This document shows positions 345-41,442 of a DNA stretch of 44,015 nucleotides, piece after piece (position 1 is the first letter of the stretch; every line of letters begins with the position of its first letter). The notes under the pieces were generated by a model. That model ran no database searches and was not told the DNA's origin. It was given only the letters and a program-made list of their open reading frames with translations. The translations under genes were made by a program, and so were the position numbers. Where the stretch lies: contig CALJIH010000006.1 of the NCBI GenBank assembly GCA_937974135.1, positions 1-44,015 of the forward strand, written 5' to 3'. This DNA comes from an uncultured Cocleimonas sp. GTDB taxonomy: Bacteria; Pseudomonadota; Gammaproteobacteria; Thiotrichales; Thiotrichaceae.

Positions 345-1577
345 TTATTTGATAATAGCAAGCGCTCTACTGGCACTAATTAAACCTTCGCCATACTCTT
401 GATCGCGACCAGGTTTACCCAAATCAACAGCTGTCTGTTTAAGCACATTATTTATATTTTTATTGCCTTTGCGTGATAATAATAATGCCGCGACACCACT
501 CACATGCGCAGATGATATTGATGTGCCTGTTGCTAATTTGTACTTACCTTGAGGTGCAAGGGTCAAAATATTTACCCCAGGTGCAGCGTAATCAATAAAT
601 TGTCCTTTATCAGCCATATCAAAAAGCTTTTGGTTTTCATCAACCGCTGTCGCTGTTAACACACCAGGAATTAATGCAGGATAAATTGTACTTCCCACTC
701 TTCCACCATTGCCTGCTGCTGCTACAACAATAATGCCTTTGTTAATCGCTTTGTTAACCATTTTCTCAACTAGAGAGTCTTTACCCCCAGTAAAACTGAG
801 ATTGATAACATCCACTTTATGCTGAATGCATGCATCAAGTGCTTTAGCGACATCTGAAGATGTACCTTTTAAATCATCCGGACGACTTGAATCAGCTTTA
901 AAAGCACCTACTGCAAATAGTTTTGCTCTTGGAGCAATACCAATATGTTTATTCTGACTTACCAACACTCCCGCCACACTTGTGCCGTGCAACATTGATT
1001 CTGGACTTTTCTCGTCAAAATCAAAAAGATCTAAGGTTTCAATTAATGCATTCGATAACGAAGGGTGATATATATCTACTGGTGTATCGACCATGCAAAT
1101 AGTGATACCTTGGCCTTTCGTAGTGGCATGCACATAACGTACACCCGTTTCATACATTGAATAAGCGTTATTAAATGTAGTTGCTGCAGTCTTAAACACA
1201 TTATTAGTTGCTGCCTCAACACTTTTCTCTTTTTGATTAATTGTTTTACTTAGATTTAGTGGGTTTTGTCCTTTTGTTTTCGCGACTAACATCCCTGTAT
1301 TGACAGATGATAAAACGACCTTGCTGCTTGTCTCTAAACCATACTTTTTTGTGATATTTTTTACAGACCCCGCTTTATCCGCAGGATAAAGAAGCACTAC
1401 TTCATCTTTGACAAAATTTGTTCTTGGAGGAATTGGTCTATCTGGCTCATAGATAAAGTCAAAATAAACTGGATCAGCTGACTCATCTTCAACGAGATAA
1501 TTTTCCGCACTTAAACTTGCCACTGACAATGTGACAAATAGAGTAACTAATAAATGTATTAAATTAAAATGCTTCAC
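345..1577 (-). CDS. Exported S8 (subtilisin-like) serine peptidase
   Basis: N-terminal signal peptide; Asp motif (ICMVDTPVD), His motif (LHGTSVAGV), Ser motif (ATGTSISSAHVSGVAALL). Confidence 0.92.
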   Translation of the reverse strand: MKHFNLIHLLVTLFVTLSVASLSAENYLVEDESADPVYFDFIYEPDRPIPPRTNFVKDEVVLLYPADKAGSVKNITKKYGLETSSKVVLSSVNTGMLVAKTKGQNPLNLSKTINQKEKSVEAATNNVFKTAATTFNNAYSMYETGVRYVHATTKGQGITICMVDTPVDIYHPSLSNALIETLDLFDFDEKSPESMLHGTSVAGVLVSQNKHIGIAPRAKLFAVGAFKADSSRPDDLKGTSSDVAKALDACIQHKVDVINLSFTGGKDSLVEKMVNKAINKGIIVVAAAGNGGRVGSTIYPALIPGVLTATAVDENQKLFDMADKGQFIDYAAPGVNILTLAPQGKYKLATGTSISSAHVSGVAALLLSRKGNKNINNVLKQTAVDLGKPGRDQEYGEGLISASRALAIIK

Positions 1578-2328
1578 CAGCGAACCATATTATTTCTTTT
1601 TGGGCGAGTAATGAATCAATCGTTTGTTTAATTTGCTCATTATTCATCGTTTCTTTGAAACTGATTTGAAAAATGCCTTCTTTATCAGGAACACTTTCTA
1701 TTTTTAATACCTTTCCTTTAAGAACAGTATTATCACCTAGCTCCACTGATGAACCATTGAAGCCAACCAATAACGTTGTTTTTGTTGAATTCGTTAAAGT
1801 AGGTTGATTTGCCTTGGATTGAGTGACTGCTGAGGCAGGTACAAAATCACTTTTATCGTTAAACAAAGGTGCAACAAAAGCTGTTAAAACGGCTACAGAC
1901 AAAACAAGAATACCAACACTAGCTAAACGTGCATACTGAGGCATACCGTTTGTATTAGGCATTAGTACATCAAATGCACTTTTGAATTTGTCTAGAATAG
2001 AGTTACTTTGCTTAGAATTGTCGCGAGCATCTTCAGCATCAATCATATTTAATACAGATTTCAGTCGCTCTTCTGTTGGTGCAATAGCGCTTTTATCCAG
2101 AATGGAATGATCTGCAGAAACTGCTTGTTGCATCTGCTGTTCAATTTCTATTTGCTTTCGCAGAGAAGGATATGACACCAATGCTTTTTCAAAAAACACC
2201 TGATCATCTACTGAAAGTTTGCCAATAGCGTACCATGGTATCAGTTCTAAAACCTTTTCAGGTATAAAACCTTCACTGTTGTTAGTATTGTTATTCATGT
2301 TATGTAATAAAGTCTTCATTGCTGACAA
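1564..2328 (-). CDS. Putative anti-sigma factor, single-TM membrane protein
   Basis: Lies directly after and overlaps an ECF sigma gene; cytosolic N-terminus with LELIPWYAIGKLSVDDQ..FEKAL anti-sigma-like motif, one TM, periplasmic C-terminus; start may be 2328, 2319 or 2298. Confidence 0.75.
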   Translation of the reverse strand: MSAMKTLLHNMNNNTNNSEGFIPEKVLELIPWYAIGKLSVDDQVFFEKALVSYPSLRKQIEIEQQMQQAVSADHSILDKSAIAPTEERLKSVLNMIDAEDARDNSKQSNSILDKFKSAFDVLMPNTNGMPQYARLASVGILVLSVAVLTAFVAPLFNDKSDFVPASAVTQSKANQPTLTNSTKTTLLVGFNGSSVELGDNTVLKGKVLKIESVPDKEGIFQISFKETMNNEQIKQTIDSLLAQKEIIWFAGEAF

Positions 2329-2893
2329 TAGCTTTTAGGTGTTTTCTAGCGTAAAACATTCGGGTTTTAACCGTGTTTTCCGAAACATCTAACATCTCTG
2401 AAATATCTTTAATTGAAAGCTCTCGAAAATAAACAAGCTCTATAACTTCTCTGTGCTTGTCACTTAATTTACCGATATCTTTAACTAATTGCTCGTTCCT
2501 TTCAGAGACAGCCATTTCATCATCTGGCTGAAGATCAGTATCCTCAATATTTAATTGCTCAAAATTATCGTCTTGTAATACTTCTTTATTCTTTCTCAGG
2601 TACCCAATCATGCGGAACCTTGCGATAGAATGTATCCATGTAGAAGGTTGGGATAAACCAGAAAATGTACCTGCTGATTTCCAAACTTCAATCATCGCTT
2701 CGTCAGCAATATCTGCTGCTAAGGCAATGTCATTCTTTAGCATACGGCTACAAAACTTAATCAACCGAGGTTGAAAAATCGTATATAGCTCGGTGAATGC
2801 ATCTCTGTCACCGTCGGCAATTCTTTTGAGAAGTATCGCGTCTTTCTCCGCTCTACTTCCTGCCGGCTGTTTATTGTTTTTATCTGCACTCAT
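2300..2893 (-). CDS. RNA polymerase sigma factor, ECF/sigma-70 family
   Basis: Region 2 (AFTELYTIFQPRLIKFCSRML...STWIHSIARFRMIGYLRK) and region 4 (HREVIELVYFRELSIKDISEMLDVSENTVKTRMFYARKHL). Confidence 0.95.
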   Translation of the reverse strand: MSADKNNKQPAGSRAEKDAILLKRIADGDRDAFTELYTIFQPRLIKFCSRMLKNDIALAADIADEAMIEVWKSAGTFSGLSQPSTWIHSIARFRMIGYLRKNKEVLQDDNFEQLNIEDTDLQPDDEMAVSERNEQLVKDIGKLSDKHREVIELVYFRELSIKDISEMLDVSENTVKTRMFYARKHLKAIVSNEDFIT

Positions 2894-34539: not shown

Positions 34540-36357
34540 GTGATAGAGAATTTAAGAAACATTGCCATTATTGCCCACGTTGATCATGGTAAAACAACAC
34601 TAGTTGATAAAATGTTAGAGCAATCAGGCACTCTTGGCGAAAGAGCAGATATTTCTGAAAGAATGATGGACTCAAATGCTATCGAGCAAGAACGTGGTAT
34701 AACAATACTTGCAAAGAATACTGCAATTAAATGGAATGATTACCGCATTAATATTGTCGACACACCAGGCCATGCCGATTTTGGTGGAGAAGTAGAACGT
34801 GTGTTATCAATGGTTGATTCTGTATTGTTGTTGGTTGATGCAGTTGATGGGCCAATGCCTCAAACCAGATTCGTTACCTCTAAAGCATTCGCAATGGGTT
34901 TTAAGCCGATTGTAGTTATCAATAAAATTGATCGTCCAGGTGCACGTCCTGATTGGGCGCTAGATCAAACATTTGATCTTTTCGATAAACTTGGGGCAAC
35001 TGACGAACAATTAGATTTTCCTGTTGTTTATGCTTCCGCCATTAACGGTTACGCAGGCATGGAAGATTCGGTGGACAGTGGCGACATGACTCCTCTGTTC
35101 CAGACCATCGTTGACAGTGTCGCCCATCCAGATGTTGATCCTGATGCGCCATTCCAAATGCAAGTTTCTCAGCTTGATTATAACTCGTATACAGGTTTGA
35201 TCGGTATTGGTCGAATCAAGCAAGGCAAAATCAAGCGTAACAGCGCGATCAAAGTAATTGACGCTGAAGGCAAGATCCGTAATGGTCGTATTTTGCAGCC
35301 AATGGGATTCCATGGCCTTGAGCGTATTGAAGTTGAAGAAGCCCAAGCTGGTGACATTATTGCATTTACAGGTATGGATAAACTACATATCTCAGATACG
35401 CTTTGTGATCCAGATAACGTCGTTGCTCTGCCAGCGATGACGGTTGATGAACCTACGGTTAGCATGACTTTTCAGGTAAATAACTCACCCTTCGCAGGTA
35501 AAGAAGGCAAGTATGTTACCTCACGAAATATCCAAGAACGTTTAGATGAAGAACTGCTACACAATGTAGCTTTACGTGTCGAGCAAGGTGATGATATCGA
35601 TAAATTCAGAGTATCTGGGCGTGGTGAATTACACTTAGGTATCCTAATAGAAAATATGCGTCGCGAAGGCTTTGAAGTTGCAGTTTCTCGACCTGAAGTC
35701 GTGGTTCGTGGTGAAGGTGACAGTCGTGAAGAACCTTACGAAAACTTAACGATTGATATCGAAGAAAATCACCAAGGCAGTATCATGGAAAAAATGGGCG
35801 AACGAAAAGGTGCTCTGCAGAACATGGAAACTGATGGCAAAGGTCGAATTCGCCTTGAATATGTTATCCCTTCAAGAGGCTTAATTGGTTTTCAAACTGA
35901 ATTCATGACGCTTACCTCTGGTACTGGATTAATGTATCACTCGTTTGATCATTATGGCCCATTTATCAAAGAAGAAATTGGTCAACGCAGCAGCGGCGTA
36001 TTGGTTTCTAACTCAACCGGTAAAGCCTTAGCCTTTGCTATCTTCAATCTTCAAGAACGTGGCAAGATGTTTATTGATCACGCTCAAGAAGTATATGAAG
36101 GTCAAGTAGTTGGTATTCACAGCCGTGATAATGACTTGGTGGTTAACCCGCTTAAAGCGAAACAATTAAACAATATTCGTGCGGCAGGTACTGATGAAAA
36201 CTTGATATTAGTTAAACCTATCAAATTTACTTTAGAGCAAGCGCTAGAATTTGTGGATGATGACGAACTTGTTGAAATCACCCCTGAAAGCATTCGCATT
36301 CGTAAAAAGATTCTTAATGAAAGCATGCGCAAAGCAGCAACCCGTGGTAATAAATAA
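34540..36357 (+). CDS. typA: Ribosome-associated GTPase TypA/BipA
   Basis: [64 protein letters not shown]. Confidence 0.98.
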
Positions 36358-36393
36358 TTTTTAATGTTAAAACAATCACTATAAAAATAACCT

Positions 36394-36414
36394 AAAAGAC
36401 ACCCCCCTACTTTT
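36394..36414 (+). repeat. C6-box intergenic repeat copy 10 (short form)
   Basis: AAAAGACACCCCCCTACTTTT followed by AAGGGGTTTT. Confidence 0.9.
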
Positions 36415-36768
36415 AAGGGGTTTTGCAAGCATCGTATTTATTGATTGTCATCCTAGCTACTTAGGACAATCCAGGCTCAGCGTGATTAGATTAATAAGCA
36501 CTAAAAGTAGCTGGATAGAAAATTTTATAAAAAAATAAAGATTTATCCGAATTTATAAGCAAATTCCTTGGTTATAAAATACTTATTCTGCAATCAATTG
36601 TTATCTAAAATTCATTCTTTTGTATTAATACCTATGTATTAATTCCTTCTAATACTTTTTCCTTAGCCGTAAAAGGCTATTAATTTAAATCATAAGGGTC
36701 TCTATAGTTTGTTATACGGTGTTGCGAGGGAATCGCTCTCCGTTAAACAAAAATAAATTTTATCTGAT

Positions 36769-36796
36769 TCTGGTTTAACAACAGATCTAAACCAGA
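36769..36796 (+). promoter_or_regulatory. 9-bp perfect inverted repeat in the leader of the small exported protein gene
   Basis: TCTGGTTTA-10 nt-TAAACCAGA, no T-run after. Confidence 0.5.
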
Positions 36797-36847
36797 CACT
36801 GTTAAAAATTATTTTTATTTTTATGTATTTTAATGAAGGAGATCATT

Positions 36848-37192
36848 ATGAAAGTTCAATTATTAACAGCAGTAGCAATCTTAGCTTTAACTTCTACATC
36901 AGCATTTGCTATGAAAGGCTATGGCCCTAAACCACAACCAGCATCTAAAACTACTTTAGATAACTACTCTAAAAATGCGTTAGCTATTGGTGATACAGCA
37001 GGAAGCGCTGGTAGCGGATACACAGGTTTCACTATCGATAGTTCTGGTGGTCGTGCAGTTGCTGGATCTATTTTGCTTACTGGTGGTGCTTGTGCTTGCG
37101 AATTTGACACTATTATCAACACGTCTCATAACGCTATCGCTGTAGGTGATGCTCTAGCAGGTTCTATACAAGTATCTACAATGTCTAAATAG
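36848..37192 (+). CDS. Small exported protein, candidate curlin/HfaA-like subunit
   Basis: GAAGGAGATCATTATG Shine-Dalgarno favours start 36848 over 36833; signal peptide ending SAFA; two related motifs NYSKNALAIGDTAGS and NTSHNAIAVGDALAGS. Confidence 0.7.
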   Translation: MKVQLLTAVAILALTSTSAFAMKGYGPKPQPASKTTLDNYSKNALAIGDTAGSAGSGYTGFTIDSSGGRAVAGSILLTGGACACEFDTIINTSHNAIAVGDALAGSIQVSTMSK

Positions 37193-37246
37193 TCAAAAGC
37201 TAATTTAGTAGAAAACTGATATACGGACGATAGAGGATTTTTAGAA

Positions 37247-37672
37247 ATGAAAATTAAAAGATTAAAAGACATTATCAAATATATGTCATTAAACCTTGGA
37301 TCATTGAAGATTAAAACTTCTATTGTCTGTGTATTTTTATTGTTTTTCTCAAGTATAAGTTTTGCCAATAGGTTTAATCCACCATCATTAGATTTTCCGC
37401 TACAGGAGTTTGATTCACGAATAGACGGAAATATTTTTAATGTGGATTTCCTGATAGCTCACATCGTAAACAATGGCAGAAAAACAGTGAGGGAAACAGG
37501 CGAGATTATCAATTCATTGGAAGATTTATTACAAGACACCGCTATTTTCACAAACAGTAATGACACAGGTACTCCAGCTGCAGGTTCAGTAATAATACCT
37601 CCCGGCACTTCCGCAGATACGATAATTATACTAAATCAAAATGAAGGGGATTCAATAGCAATACAGCGTTAA
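37247..37672 (+). CDS. Small exported protein with curlin-like C-terminal motif
   Basis: Hydrophobic export signal ending SISFA; C-terminus IIILNQNEGDSIAIQR resembles a curlin repeat. Confidence 0.6.
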   Translation: MKIKRLKDIIKYMSLNLGSLKIKTSIVCVFLLFFSSISFANRFNPPSLDFPLQEFDSRIDGNIFNVDFLIAHIVNNGRKTVRETGEIINSLEDLLQDTAIFTNSNDTGTPAAGSVIIPPGTSADTIIILNQNEGDSIAIQR

Positions 37673-37722
37673 TACTATTAATAAATTAAAAAAATAAAAT
37701 TATAACAAACAAGGATAAAGTC

Positions 37723-39081
37723 ATGTGCGAATGGAGAATAAAATTAAATGTGGTCTGCATCACAGTGCTTTTGAGCGCTTGTTCTGCCACAAATACTCGT
37801 AATGAGTTTAGCAATCATATTGAGTACCCTTCTGTTACTCAAACAAGAGCAACAAACATATTAGCCTGTTTTGGAGATATGCTTACTGCTTATCGCACTA
37901 AAGGTAACACTACAAACCCATTAAGATTGGCAGTAATAGATGTAAAAGACGCCACTAGTGTCTCATCTGCAAGCTATCCAAACAATGAGATTCCTTATAA
38001 TTTTACCGATATGACTTTGGGTTTAGTGTCGCGCATAGGTGGCCCAATTCGTATTGCACACATTCCAAAAAGTAATGAATTACTTGATGCTGCAAGATAT
38101 AAAAGCATCGATCCTAAAGGCAACCCTTTCTTAGGCTTATACAAACCATCACATTACAATTACGCAACAATACAACTTTACGGTGCTTTAACAGAATACG
38201 ATCGTATTCTTAGTAATAACAAAAACAGCGCTACAGGCGCATTTGAATTTGGTAGTGGTACGGGCGAAACAAATTTAGAAGCCACATCTAATAAAGTGAC
38301 GAATGTAGCTCGTATGACTATGGATTTTAGAATTGCCAGTTCTAGTGTTGGTGATGTAGTCAACAATAGTAGCTCCACAAATACAGTTCAAGTATATCAA
38401 AAAGGTAAAGACCTATCTTTTGGCTTGAGCGTAGATGGCAACTCAGTTGGATATAGCTCAGAAAGATCCATAGTAGATGCCAGACATAAAGCAATTAGGT
38501 TATTAATTGAATGGGGAATCGTTGAAGCACTAGGAAGATATACCTATGTGCCTTATTGGAAATGCCTTCCAAATTCAAGAAATAGATCTCAAATTGGCTT
38601 TAAAGATATTGTTGCATCTGACAGTTTGTATGATTTTAGCAATATGCTTTTAAGAGCTGGTTCAATTTTCAAGAACCAAGAATCAAATCCAGCCTTAGTA
38701 GATAGGAGAGATAAACTCTTAATTAACGCCGTTATGTCTGACTTTATGAATGCAGAATATATAGATGATGGTGTTCGTAAAACAGTAAGAAGACCTGAAA
38801 AAGACACTCCTTTGGTTCAACGTAAAGTTGTTGACGGTAAAGTTATTGACACAAAGTCTATGATTGATGGAAAAAGTACGGTCAGAAGAAATCTACTGAA
38901 CCATTATCGAGTAGATAATCGCTTTGCTAAAATGTCAGATAGCGTCTTATTAAAAAACCTTCACCAACAATTTATCAAAGCAAGAATTATAGATAAGAAA
39001 GATCCAGTTATGGGGTTAAATACCTATATGGCTCTGTGGTTGAATGTACCCGTAAAAAAAGGAGCTCGCTGGAATCGATAG
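37723..39081 (+). CDS. CsgG/HfaB-like outer-membrane lipoprotein with extended C-terminal domain
   Basis: Lipobox LLSAC; LRLAVIDVKDAT; TIQLYGALTEYDR; ARMTMDFRIASSSVGDVVNNSS; RHKAIRLLIEWGIVEALGRYTYVPYWKCL. Confidence 0.65.
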   Translation: MCEWRIKLNVVCITVLLSACSATNTRNEFSNHIEYPSVTQTRATNILACFGDMLTAYRTKGNTTNPLRLAVIDVKDATSVSSASYPNNEIPYNFTDMTLGLVSRIGGPIRIAHIPKSNELLDAARYKSIDPKGNPFLGLYKPSHYNYATIQLYGALTEYDRILSNNKNSATGAFEFGSGTGETNLEATSNKVTNVARMTMDFRIASSSVGDVVNNSSSTNTVQVYQKGKDLSFGLSVDGNSVGYSSERSIVDARHKAIRLLIEWGIVEALGRYTYVPYWKCLPNSRNRSQIGFKDIVASDSLYDFSNMLLRAGSIFKNQESNPALVDRRDKLLINAVMSDFMNAEYIDDGVRKTVRRPEKDTPLVQRKVVDGKVIDTKSMIDGKSTVRRNLLNHYRVDNRFAKMSDSVLLKNLHQQFIKARIIDKKDPVMGLNTYMALWLNVPVKKGARWNR

Positions 39082-39154
39082 ACTTTTAAATAACTACACG
39101 GGATAGATCAATTATCCTCATGTTTAAAGTCAATACTTCCACTAGAAGAAAGTC

Positions 39155-39538
39155 GTGAATAATTTATATCGAAAAATCGCACAAATTATTTTATCAATCT
39201 TACTGACTTCATTGGTGGTGCCATCGGTATTTGCAGCGATCGCTTTTTCAGGGGATTCAGTTAACTCTCTATCAGTTTCCAGTAATCGCTCAGAAAATAG
39301 CTATCAATATCTCATCGAAATTGATATCAAAGGTATAGATACTTCCAAGGTTACCTTTGAGATCGAGTATCAAACGCTATATCTCTTAGCTTATCAAGGA
39401 AGTATAGTGTCAGAAGTTGCAATTTCAGGAGCACAAGTCATGCGTTTAGCCTATGACTTCCCAACCAATGCCGATCTTAAAAATTATTTCAGAATAAATC
39501 ATCCCAATAAAATTATTATCAGTATTCCAAAGGCTTGA
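39155..39538 (+). CDS. Exported Hsp20/alpha-crystallin-like protein
   Basis: Signal peptide (..VPSVFA), then YQYLIEIDIKGIDTSKVTFEIEYQTLYLLAYQG...MRLAYDFPTNADLKNYFRINHPNKIIISIPKA, matching the sHSP layout; start is GTG. Confidence 0.65.
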   Translation: MNNLYRKIAQIILSILLTSLVVPSVFAAIAFSGDSVNSLSVSSNRSENSYQYLIEIDIKGIDTSKVTFEIEYQTLYLLAYQGSIVSEVAISGAQVMRLAYDFPTNADLKNYFRINHPNKIIISIPKA

Positions 39539-39627
39539 TCGTCTTTTAAGCAATCAATTCAATTCTCAAAACCTCTATATAAACTTGGCATATACTTTAA
39601 CTATCTAATATTAGAAATGAGTTATTT

Positions 39628-40203
39628 ATGTTTAAGAAACTACTGGTCTTTGTATTATTATTTACTTTACCTACCATTTCAGTTTTAGCGCATACTGAAC
39701 ACGAAGAAATTCAAGTAAAAAGTTCATTTGAAGTTAATAGTCGGCAGCAATTAAGCGCAATTTCAATGGTATGGTTGTATGACACTTTTTCTAGTGAAGA
39801 TATGCTTCAACATGAAAAAGACATCAATCGCCTTGCCAAGGTGCTCATTAGCGATCTATCTCGGTTTAATTTTTACACGCGCTTAAATTCTGGAGATCGT
39901 CGTTTAGTAGCCAATAGAATCAATAAATACAAACTGAGAAAAGTGAAAGATAAGGACAACAACCTTGCATTAGAATTAAGTTTCACCTTGTTAATTAATA
40001 AACCGATTGATATTTCTAAAATAAAAAACATTAAGATAGATCATTCAGACCCAACGGGCAGAGGCATTCTTTTTTATGACAAAGCAGAAGATATCAGTCT
40101 AGCTACAGTCTTAAAATCCAAGTGCAGGTCTAAGCTAAAAGAGAAGGCTGAGTTTATAGAAGGACAATTTCCACAAATTGCTAATGTCACTTGTCGAACT
40201 TAA
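39628..40203 (+). CDS. Exported DUF1007-like protein
   Basis: Signal peptide; AHTEHEEIQVKSSFEVNSRQQLSAISMVWLYDTFSSEDML is a DUF1007-type N-terminus. Confidence 0.65.
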   Translation: MFKKLLVFVLLFTLPTISVLAHTEHEEIQVKSSFEVNSRQQLSAISMVWLYDTFSSEDMLQHEKDINRLAKVLISDLSRFNFYTRLNSGDRRLVANRINKYKLRKVKDKDNNLALELSFTLLINKPIDISKIKNIKIDHSDPTGRGILFYDKAEDISLATVLKSKCRSKLKEKAEFIEGQFPQIANVTCRT

Positions 40204-40251: not shown

Positions 40252-41442
40252 ATGAATATCAGAAAACTTCATTTTTTTGCGTTTCTACAATTGTCCTTAA
40301 TTCTATTCTTGACGGCATGTGGAGGTGGCTCATCAAACGACTTTACCGAGCCTGAAGATCCGCCAGCTTCTGAACTAAATCGTGGCGACCTAATCAGTAG
40401 CAGCTTTATAAGCAACAATCAGATTCTGCTTCGACCATACTCAGTTGATTCTTATAAAATTATTTATTCAACGGTTGACACCAATAATAATCAAATAAAC
40501 GCATCAGGTTTGTTAAGTATCCCTAAAAAAGCCTTAGGAGCGAAAAGTCCGTTAGTAAGTTACCAACATGGCACCATTTTTACTGATGCTAGAGCCCCTT
40601 CTAACGATATTAGCTCAATCCAAGGTATTGGAGTATTAGCAGGAGCAGGCTATATCGTAAGTTCACCAGATTACTTGGGTTACGCTGAATCTACAGCAAT
40701 TTTGCATCCTTATGTTCACGCAGATAGTTTGGCCAGCGCATCTATAGACATGCTTCGTGCCAGCAAAGCGTTTTTGGCTAACCAAAATATAGAAATAAAT
40801 GATCAGTTATTTCTTGCGGGCTATTCAGAGGGAGGTTACGCAACCATTGCTTTGCAGAGAGAACTCCAAAATAGCTTTTCTTCTGAATTCACCGTAACCG
40901 CATCTGCTGCAGGCGCTGGCCCATACAGTTTATTGGAATCAGCAAGATTCTTTGCAAACCTACCAATTAACAATAACCCTTCTTATATGAGTTTTGTGAT
41001 CAAAGCCTACGATACAATTTACTCGTTAGATCAAATTGATGAAATATACCAAGCGCCATTCCGTGACATCATTAATACTTCATTTGATGGCTCAAGATCT
41101 GGCAGTCAAATAGATGCACTATTAACATCGACAACAGCCGATTTATTCGAACCAGAGTTTTTGAGTATTCTACAAGGCTCCGAAAGTCATCCGCTTAAAG
41201 ATGCATTAGCATTAAATAATGTTTTTGATTGGAGACCAAATGCACCGACACGTTTATATCATGATGTTCAAGACGAGATTGTGCCTTATAGCAATACCGT
41301 AAAAGCATTAGAGAGCATGCAAGCAAATGGGGCTACGGATGTTAGTTTGAGAACATGCCCTTTAAATGGACATGTCGCATGTGCGGTCCCTTATGTGTTA
41401 GATGCGTTGAGCTTCTTAAATACCTATGCAGAAGATTTATAG
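40252..41442 (+). CDS. Lipoprotein alpha/beta hydrolase (secretory-lipase-like)
   Basis: Lipobox LTACGGG; SYQHGTIF; FLAGYSEGGYATIAL (GxSxG); late His in NGHVAC. Confidence 0.85.
   Translation: MNIRKLHFFAFLQLSLILFLTACGGGSSNDFTEPEDPPASELNRGDLISSSFISNNQILLRPYSVDSYKIIYSTVDTNNNQINASGLLSIPKKALGAKSPLVSYQHGTIFTDARAPSNDISSIQGIGVLAGAGYIVSSPDYLGYAESTAILHPYVHADSLASASIDMLRASKAFLANQNIEINDQLFLAGYSEGGYATIALQRELQNSFSSEFTVTASAAGAGPYSLLESARFFANLPINNNPSYMSFVIKAYDTIYSLDQIDEIYQAPFRDIINTSFDGSRSGSQIDALLTSTTADLFEPEFLSILQGSESHPLKDALALNNVFDWRPNAPTRLYHDVQDEIVPYSNTVKALESMQANGATDVSLRTCPLNGHVACAVPYVLDALSFLNTYAEDL

Follow-up and report, generated by a model that had tools for sequence, protein, structure and literature searches.

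A Cocleimonas operon that may couple HfaB/CsgG-type export to its own exported alpha-crystallin-type chaperone

Results and Discussion

Layout of the locus

Four consecutive genes of an uncultured Cocleimonas, here called p1 to p4, appear to encode a variant of the CsgG/HfaB export system that includes an exported chaperone of the alpha-crystallin type; we did not find this combination described. The genes were found in a 44,015-nucleotide stretch of DNA (the window) from a genome assembly of 2.7 Mb in 313 contigs. They are proposed to encode a surface subunit (p1), a second subunit, nucleator or pore partner (p2), an outer-membrane exporter (p3) and a periplasmic holdase (p4).

The four open reading frames lie on the plus strand at positions 36848-39538 and encode proteins of 114 (p1, 36848-37192), 141 (p2, 37247-37672), 452 (p3, 37723-39081) and 127 (p4, 39155-39538, with a GTG start) amino acids, separated by gaps of 54, 50 and 73 nt. 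By inspection, Sec-type signal peptides were recognized in p1 (..STSAFA/), p2 (..SSISFA/) and p4 (..PSVFA/), and p3 carries a lipobox, which agrees with the original prediction of four consecutive plus-strand genes with export signals. A scan for promoter- or terminator-like patterns between the genes found none that stood out, which is weak evidence. Upstream, typA ends at 36357 and, downstream, a gene for a DUF1007 protein starts at 39628; the interval between them (36358-39627) contains p1-p4 only.

Conservation and mobility within Cocleimonas

The four genes were detected in identical order in Cocleimonas flava DSM 24830 and in one uncultured Cocleimonas isolate (G007). The window proteins were, respectively, 73 and 70% (p3), 62 and 60% (p2), 60 and 61% (p1), and 38 and 37% (p4) identical to the C. 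flava and G007 orthologs. None of the four proteins had a match in the other nine Cocleimonas genomes searched, five of which are at least 90% complete. Among 64 genomes of the family, p1 was present in three, namely the three operon-bearing Cocleimonas genomes, to which p2 also was limited. Matches to p2 or p4 in other genomes (E values of 0.001-0.05) were rejected as partial, broken by stop codons or without an adjacent p3-like gene. Strict co-conservation within Cocleimonas answers the earlier concern that the four genes might never be conserved together.

The chromosomal position of the operon differs among the three genomes. The C. flava and G007 operons adjoin a serine dehydratase gene, away from typA. 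In these two genomes and in a third relative (G011), the DUF1007 gene comes directly after typA, less than 240 bp separating the matches, and is itself followed by a response regulator gene and a histidine kinase gene. The operon occupies two unrelated chromosomal sites, and the typA-DUF1007 site is empty in three relatives. The occurrence of the same four genes at two unrelated sites, one of which was seen empty in relatives, argues that the unit was moved or lost as a whole, and this comparison of sites is the best evidence that p1-p4 are one functional unit. A lipoprotein-type, alpha/beta-hydrolase-like gene (40252-41442) lies between the DUF1007 and response regulator genes of the window. 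Since the latter two genes are adjacent in C. flava, G007 and G011, the 40252-41442 gene looks like a second insertion beside the operon.

An HfaB/CsgG-superfamily lipoprotein

The lipobox of p3 (LLSAC) places the lipidated cysteine at residue 20 (position 37780), and Cys20 did not vary across 20 aligned relatives. The region assigned to the HfaB/CsgG superfamily spans about residues 8-284 (37744-38574). It is followed by a C-terminal region of 168 residues (38575-39078) without a family match; the corresponding region of some relatives has marginal peptidoglycan-binding matches or a DUF4384 domain.

As a single sequence, p3 scored 12.1 bits against the Pfam CsgG model (PF03783), below the cut-off of 20.8, matched no NCBIfam model, that for HfaB included, and retrieved nothing in a sequence search of the PDB. 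When p3 and twelve of its relatives were combined in a profile, this matched a set of HfaB-like proteins with a probability of 98.8 and an E value of 5e-17 over 241 colinear columns. With hhalign, the three Cocleimonas p3 proteins matched the HfaB-like set at an E value of 2e-6 and their Thiothrix-family relatives at 2e-14, and these relatives matched the HfaB-like set at 3.9e-14. The HfaB-like set in turn matched CsgG (6e-13). All controls (one reversed and ten shuffled) gave E values of 0.19 or worse. The profile of the HfaB-like set matched solved CsgG structures (3e-12). Direct comparison of p3 with CsgG of csg loci by hhalign gave 80% over only 60 columns; the 13-sequence p3 profile ranked CsgG chains first in the PDB, at E values of only 0.07-0.11, and a 20-sequence profile performed more poorly. 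Two cysteines of p3 that are near-invariant in the 13-sequence alignment, C49 and C281, align with invariant cysteines of the HfaB-like proteins.

These data indicate that p3 almost certainly belongs to the HfaB/CsgG superfamily. The original description of p3 as CsgG/HfaB-like is thereby supported at the profile level, and its placement is inside the superfamily rather than outside it, where the original prediction would have failed. We conclude from the sequence comparisons that p3 is closer to HfaB than to CsgG and that its relation to CsgG runs through HfaB. An AlphaFold model of p3 built from a six-sequence alignment had a pLDDT of 36, the alignment being too shallow. Membership in this superfamily suggests that p3 probably functions as an outer-membrane pore.

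An exported Hsp20-fold protein

The signal peptide of p4 covers about 39155-39232 and its domain about 39272-39532. The Pfam HSP20 model (PF00011) did not detect the window p4 by itself. It matched the C. flava ortholog at 21.3 bits, neighbouring segments included, against a curated cut-off of 20.8, and the G007 ortholog just under the cut-off; hmmscan gave values of 0.0016 and 0.0024 for these two proteins. AlphaFold predicted a beta-sandwich whose residues 41-80 and 101-127 had a pLDDT of about 82-93. When the model was compared to the PDB with Foldseek, the best 50 matches were all small heat-shock proteins or crystallins, 35 of them with E values of 0.001 or less. The only PDB sequences matched by a p4 profile, and these weakly, were plant small heat-shock proteins. 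The likeness to a small heat-shock fold noted earlier was upheld by the HSP20 match of the C. flava ortholog, the predicted beta-sandwich and the uniform Foldseek result, and p4 is very probably an Hsp20-fold protein.

Known bacterial members of the Hsp20/alpha-crystallin family are mostly cytoplasmic. The alpha-crystallin domain is common to p4 and these small heat-shock proteins, from which p4 differs by its signal peptide and its place in an export operon. We consider it somewhat more likely than not that p4 is a periplasmic chaperone dedicated to p1 and p2. No Hsp20-like gene was present in the p3-related loci that were read outside Cocleimonas, which argues that p4 is not generally needed by such systems and is, so far, particular to Cocleimonas. 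A search of open-licence papers, which is weak evidence of novelty, yielded no description of this operon, nor of any operon of curli- or Hfa-like type that includes an Hsp20 protein.

Two small exported proteins

The p1 protein contains two related units of the form N-x-S-x-N-A-[LI]-A-[IV]-G-D (36962-36994 and 37118-37150), as the original prediction had stated. The repeat was statistically robust: when the two halves of the mature protein were aligned, none of 2000 shuffles scored as well, and this was so for each of the three orthologs. The motifs were kept between orthologs, one substitution aside. The best-conserved part of p2 is its C-terminal TIIILNQNEGDSIAIQR, in which 17 of 17 residues were identical in the three orthologs. 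This end had been likened to a curlin repeat and to the end of CsgB; the likeness did not gain statistical support, and neither p1 nor p2 matched the curlin models in Pfam and NCBIfam.

No significant homology of p2 was detected outside the genus, where the comparison included CsgF, HfaA-like and p2-like proteins. Candidate relatives, namely the Thiothrix-type p2 proteins, CsgF, the HfaA-like proteins and two gammaproteobacterial p2-like proteins, were rejected after none of them beat shuffled sequences. A p1 profile retrieved no protein like HfaD or HfaA from the fetched loci, and its matches in G058 and at other places in G000 (L073, L074) appear to be due to chance. It weakly matched (E value of 0.009 among 2329 open reading frames) a G316 repeat protein (L084) that occupies the p1 position of its locus; we treat this match as a lead only.

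Related modules in other taxa

Even samples of the class and of the phylum contained a p3 relative in 8 of 387 genomes (E <= 1e-6) and in 20 of 399 genomes (E <= 1e-10), respectively. Repetitive and small exported proteins are encoded directly upstream of the p3-like gene in related loci of other taxa. In the Thiothrix family, the gene upstream of the p3 relative encodes an exported protein of about 110 amino acids (A8) that ends like DEVIVLIDGDVIQSNNCR, and farther upstream lie genes for small exported proteins whose repeats, for example QIQTGLLNEQ, are Q/N-rich. These modules (Q/N-repeat protein, A8 and CsgG/HfaB-like lipoprotein) resemble the Cocleimonas operon in their homologous p3 and in having small exported proteins upstream of the lipoprotein gene. 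They differ in that the long C-terminal region of Cocleimonas p3 is missing in most of them, Hsp20 is lacking, and the small proteins do not have demonstrable homology to p1 or p2.

The same three-part order was found in the proteobacterial loci L090, L091, L093, L120 and L121, and in an Elusimicrobium metagenome-assembled genome (L078:4982-8107), in which a 360-residue exported repeat protein with many VGxxAxANQxS-type units is followed by a 102-residue exported protein and a p3-like lipoprotein. We regard the Elusimicrobium locus as a distant version of the p1-p3-type module. In high-GC Proteobacteria of family f108 (L120, L121, L129 and L130), the p3-like lipoproteins are about 600 amino acids long, and the exported proteins encoded ahead of them contain Q-N-[LIV]-[AS]-[ST]-N units in repeated copies.

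Several family mates encode other systems. Away from the loci of p3 relatives, they have HfaB-like proteins (NF037935, 198 bits, E value of 1.6e-58, the cut-off of 300 not being reached). Hfa-like operons were seen in the Thiothrix-family genera g8 and g3 (L039-L049, e.g., L042:809-3106); in them, an HfaB-like protein stands between a small exported protein containing SANNISVVLAGDNSSVTL and a protein that has NVTAVGNN repeats and takes the HfaD position. Members of g5 and g8 (L035, L036 and L037) have an apparent true csg locus with CsgF-like and CsgG genes, accompanied by a CsgE-like gene in L036 and L037 and by long curlin-like repeat proteins in L036.

Comparison with curli and Hfa systems

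In curli biogenesis (csgBAC-csgDEFG), CsgA is kept unfolded by CsgC while in the periplasm, ahead of its export through CsgG (PMC8729806). The logic is likely common to the Cocleimonas operon: exported small subunits, a lipoprotein exporter of the CsgG superfamily and a small periplasmic beta-sandwich chaperone. The components differ, however. The chaperone has the CsgC fold in curli and the Hsp20 fold in p4; the curlin repeats are unmatched in p1, which has two units, fewer than curlins; and CsgG is only distantly related to p3. Models for CsgE and CsgF did not match any of 12 Cocleimonas genomes, the E. coli control being positive, in line with the earlier remark that neither was recognized in this DNA. 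As judged from sequence, p1-p4 are not a curli system, because the genus is without CsgE and CsgF and because p1 and p2 do not match any curlin model.

The HfaABD system of Caulobacter crescentus has small exported proteins and an outer-membrane lipoprotein of the HfaB/CsgG superfamily, as do p1-p3, and likewise lacks CsgE and CsgF. The alignment of p3 with HfaB-like proteins over 241 columns, which includes the pairing of C49 and C281, adds to this similarity. On the other hand, p3 carries an additional long stretch at its C-terminus and falls below the HfaB model, p2 is unlike HfaA-like proteins, and the operon adds an exported Hsp20 protein. By these comparisons p1-p4 are Hfa-like in p3 and at most a candidate Hfa system.

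Proposed mechanism and alternatives

On balance, we favor the interpretation that p1-p4 form a self-contained operon for outer-membrane export and assembly of the HfaB/CsgG type. The p1 and p2 proteins would reach the periplasm by the Sec system, where p4, as a small heat-shock holdase, would keep them unfolded, by analogy with the job of CsgC in curli but with an unrelated fold. The p3 protein would oligomerize to form an outer-membrane pore that exports p1 and p2. At the surface, p1 would assemble into a short structure of amyloid-like character, by which the cell is attached or an adhesin anchored; p2 would act as the nucleator of this assembly or as a partner close to the pore. Of this scheme, the homologies of p3 and p4, the p1 repeat and the joint conservation of the four genes are established by the sequence data, and the other steps are inferred. 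We consider it reasonably likely that p1 and p2 are the cargo of p3; for an amyloid-like assembly of the two at the surface, we consider the chances to be even.

A strict Hfa-like anchor, in which p1 and p2 make a surface patch that binds a separately made polysaccharide adhesin and do not form fibres of their own, is the alternative with the most in its favor. It is consistent with the closer relation of p3 to HfaB than to CsgG, with the absence of CsgE and CsgF, and with the small exported and repeat proteins that flank the HfaB-like proteins of sister genera (NF037935, 1.6e-58, below the cut-off). Nevertheless, p2 is unlike the HfaA-like proteins of those sister-genus loci (E value of 0.1, no better than shuffles), p1 matches nothing there, and no polysaccharide genes adjoin the operon in the window. 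We consider a strict anchor unlikely.

It is less probable still that p1 and p2 are not cargo, with p2 a CsgF-like pore partner, p1 an accessory factor and the substrate encoded elsewhere. By inspection, p2 has an extended N-terminus, a helix-like middle and a beta-like C-terminus, the order seen in CsgF, and the csgF gene of family mates immediately precedes csgG, which matches the position of p2. However, the match of p2 to CsgF (E value of 0.027) was equalled by shuffled sequences, and the CsgF model found nothing in the genus. The presence of p1-p4 alone in the typA-DUF1007 block favors a self-contained unit over a substrate encoded elsewhere, and long repeat proteins occupy the p1 position in other taxa, as cargo would.

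We regard as very improbable a third alternative, in which p3 is not an exporter but a periplasmic outer-membrane lipoprotein with a CsgG-like domain, the operon acts in envelope stress or repair, and p4 is a chaperone of general use in the periplasm. In its favor, CsgG-type domains are known from proteins that do not belong to curli loci (PMC3521004), AlphaFold did not yield a p3 pore, and the usual role of small heat-shock proteins is that of general chaperones. Against it, p3 is colinear with HfaB-like proteins over the whole domain, and the p3-like genes of many taxa are paired with genes for small exported proteins that bear repeats.

Taken at its broadest, the favored interpretation of a self-contained export operon describes an amyloid or anchor export system in which an exported alpha-crystallin chaperone has replaced CsgC by convergence. 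The system would be part of a broader, as yet unnamed class of HfaB/CsgG-like repeat-protein modules that spans Proteobacteria and Elusimicrobia. We advance this broad form tentatively, as slightly short of an even chance. Amyloid exporters must hold their cargo unfolded in the periplasm, as CsgC does in curli. If p4 is the holdase of p1 and p2, two unrelated small beta-sandwich chaperones, CsgC and alpha-crystallin, have been recruited for one job, and the operon would provide a bacterial system in which to test control of functional amyloid by an alpha-crystallin domain. The repeat-protein and HfaB/CsgG-like modules suggest that export of this type is more diverse than the named curli and Hfa systems, and they may yield further CsgG-type nanopores.

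Defence-system models had no match. At the other end of the window, an exported subtilisin-like protease gene (345-2893, minus strand) is located downstream of genes for an ECF-type sigma factor and a probable anti-sigma factor.
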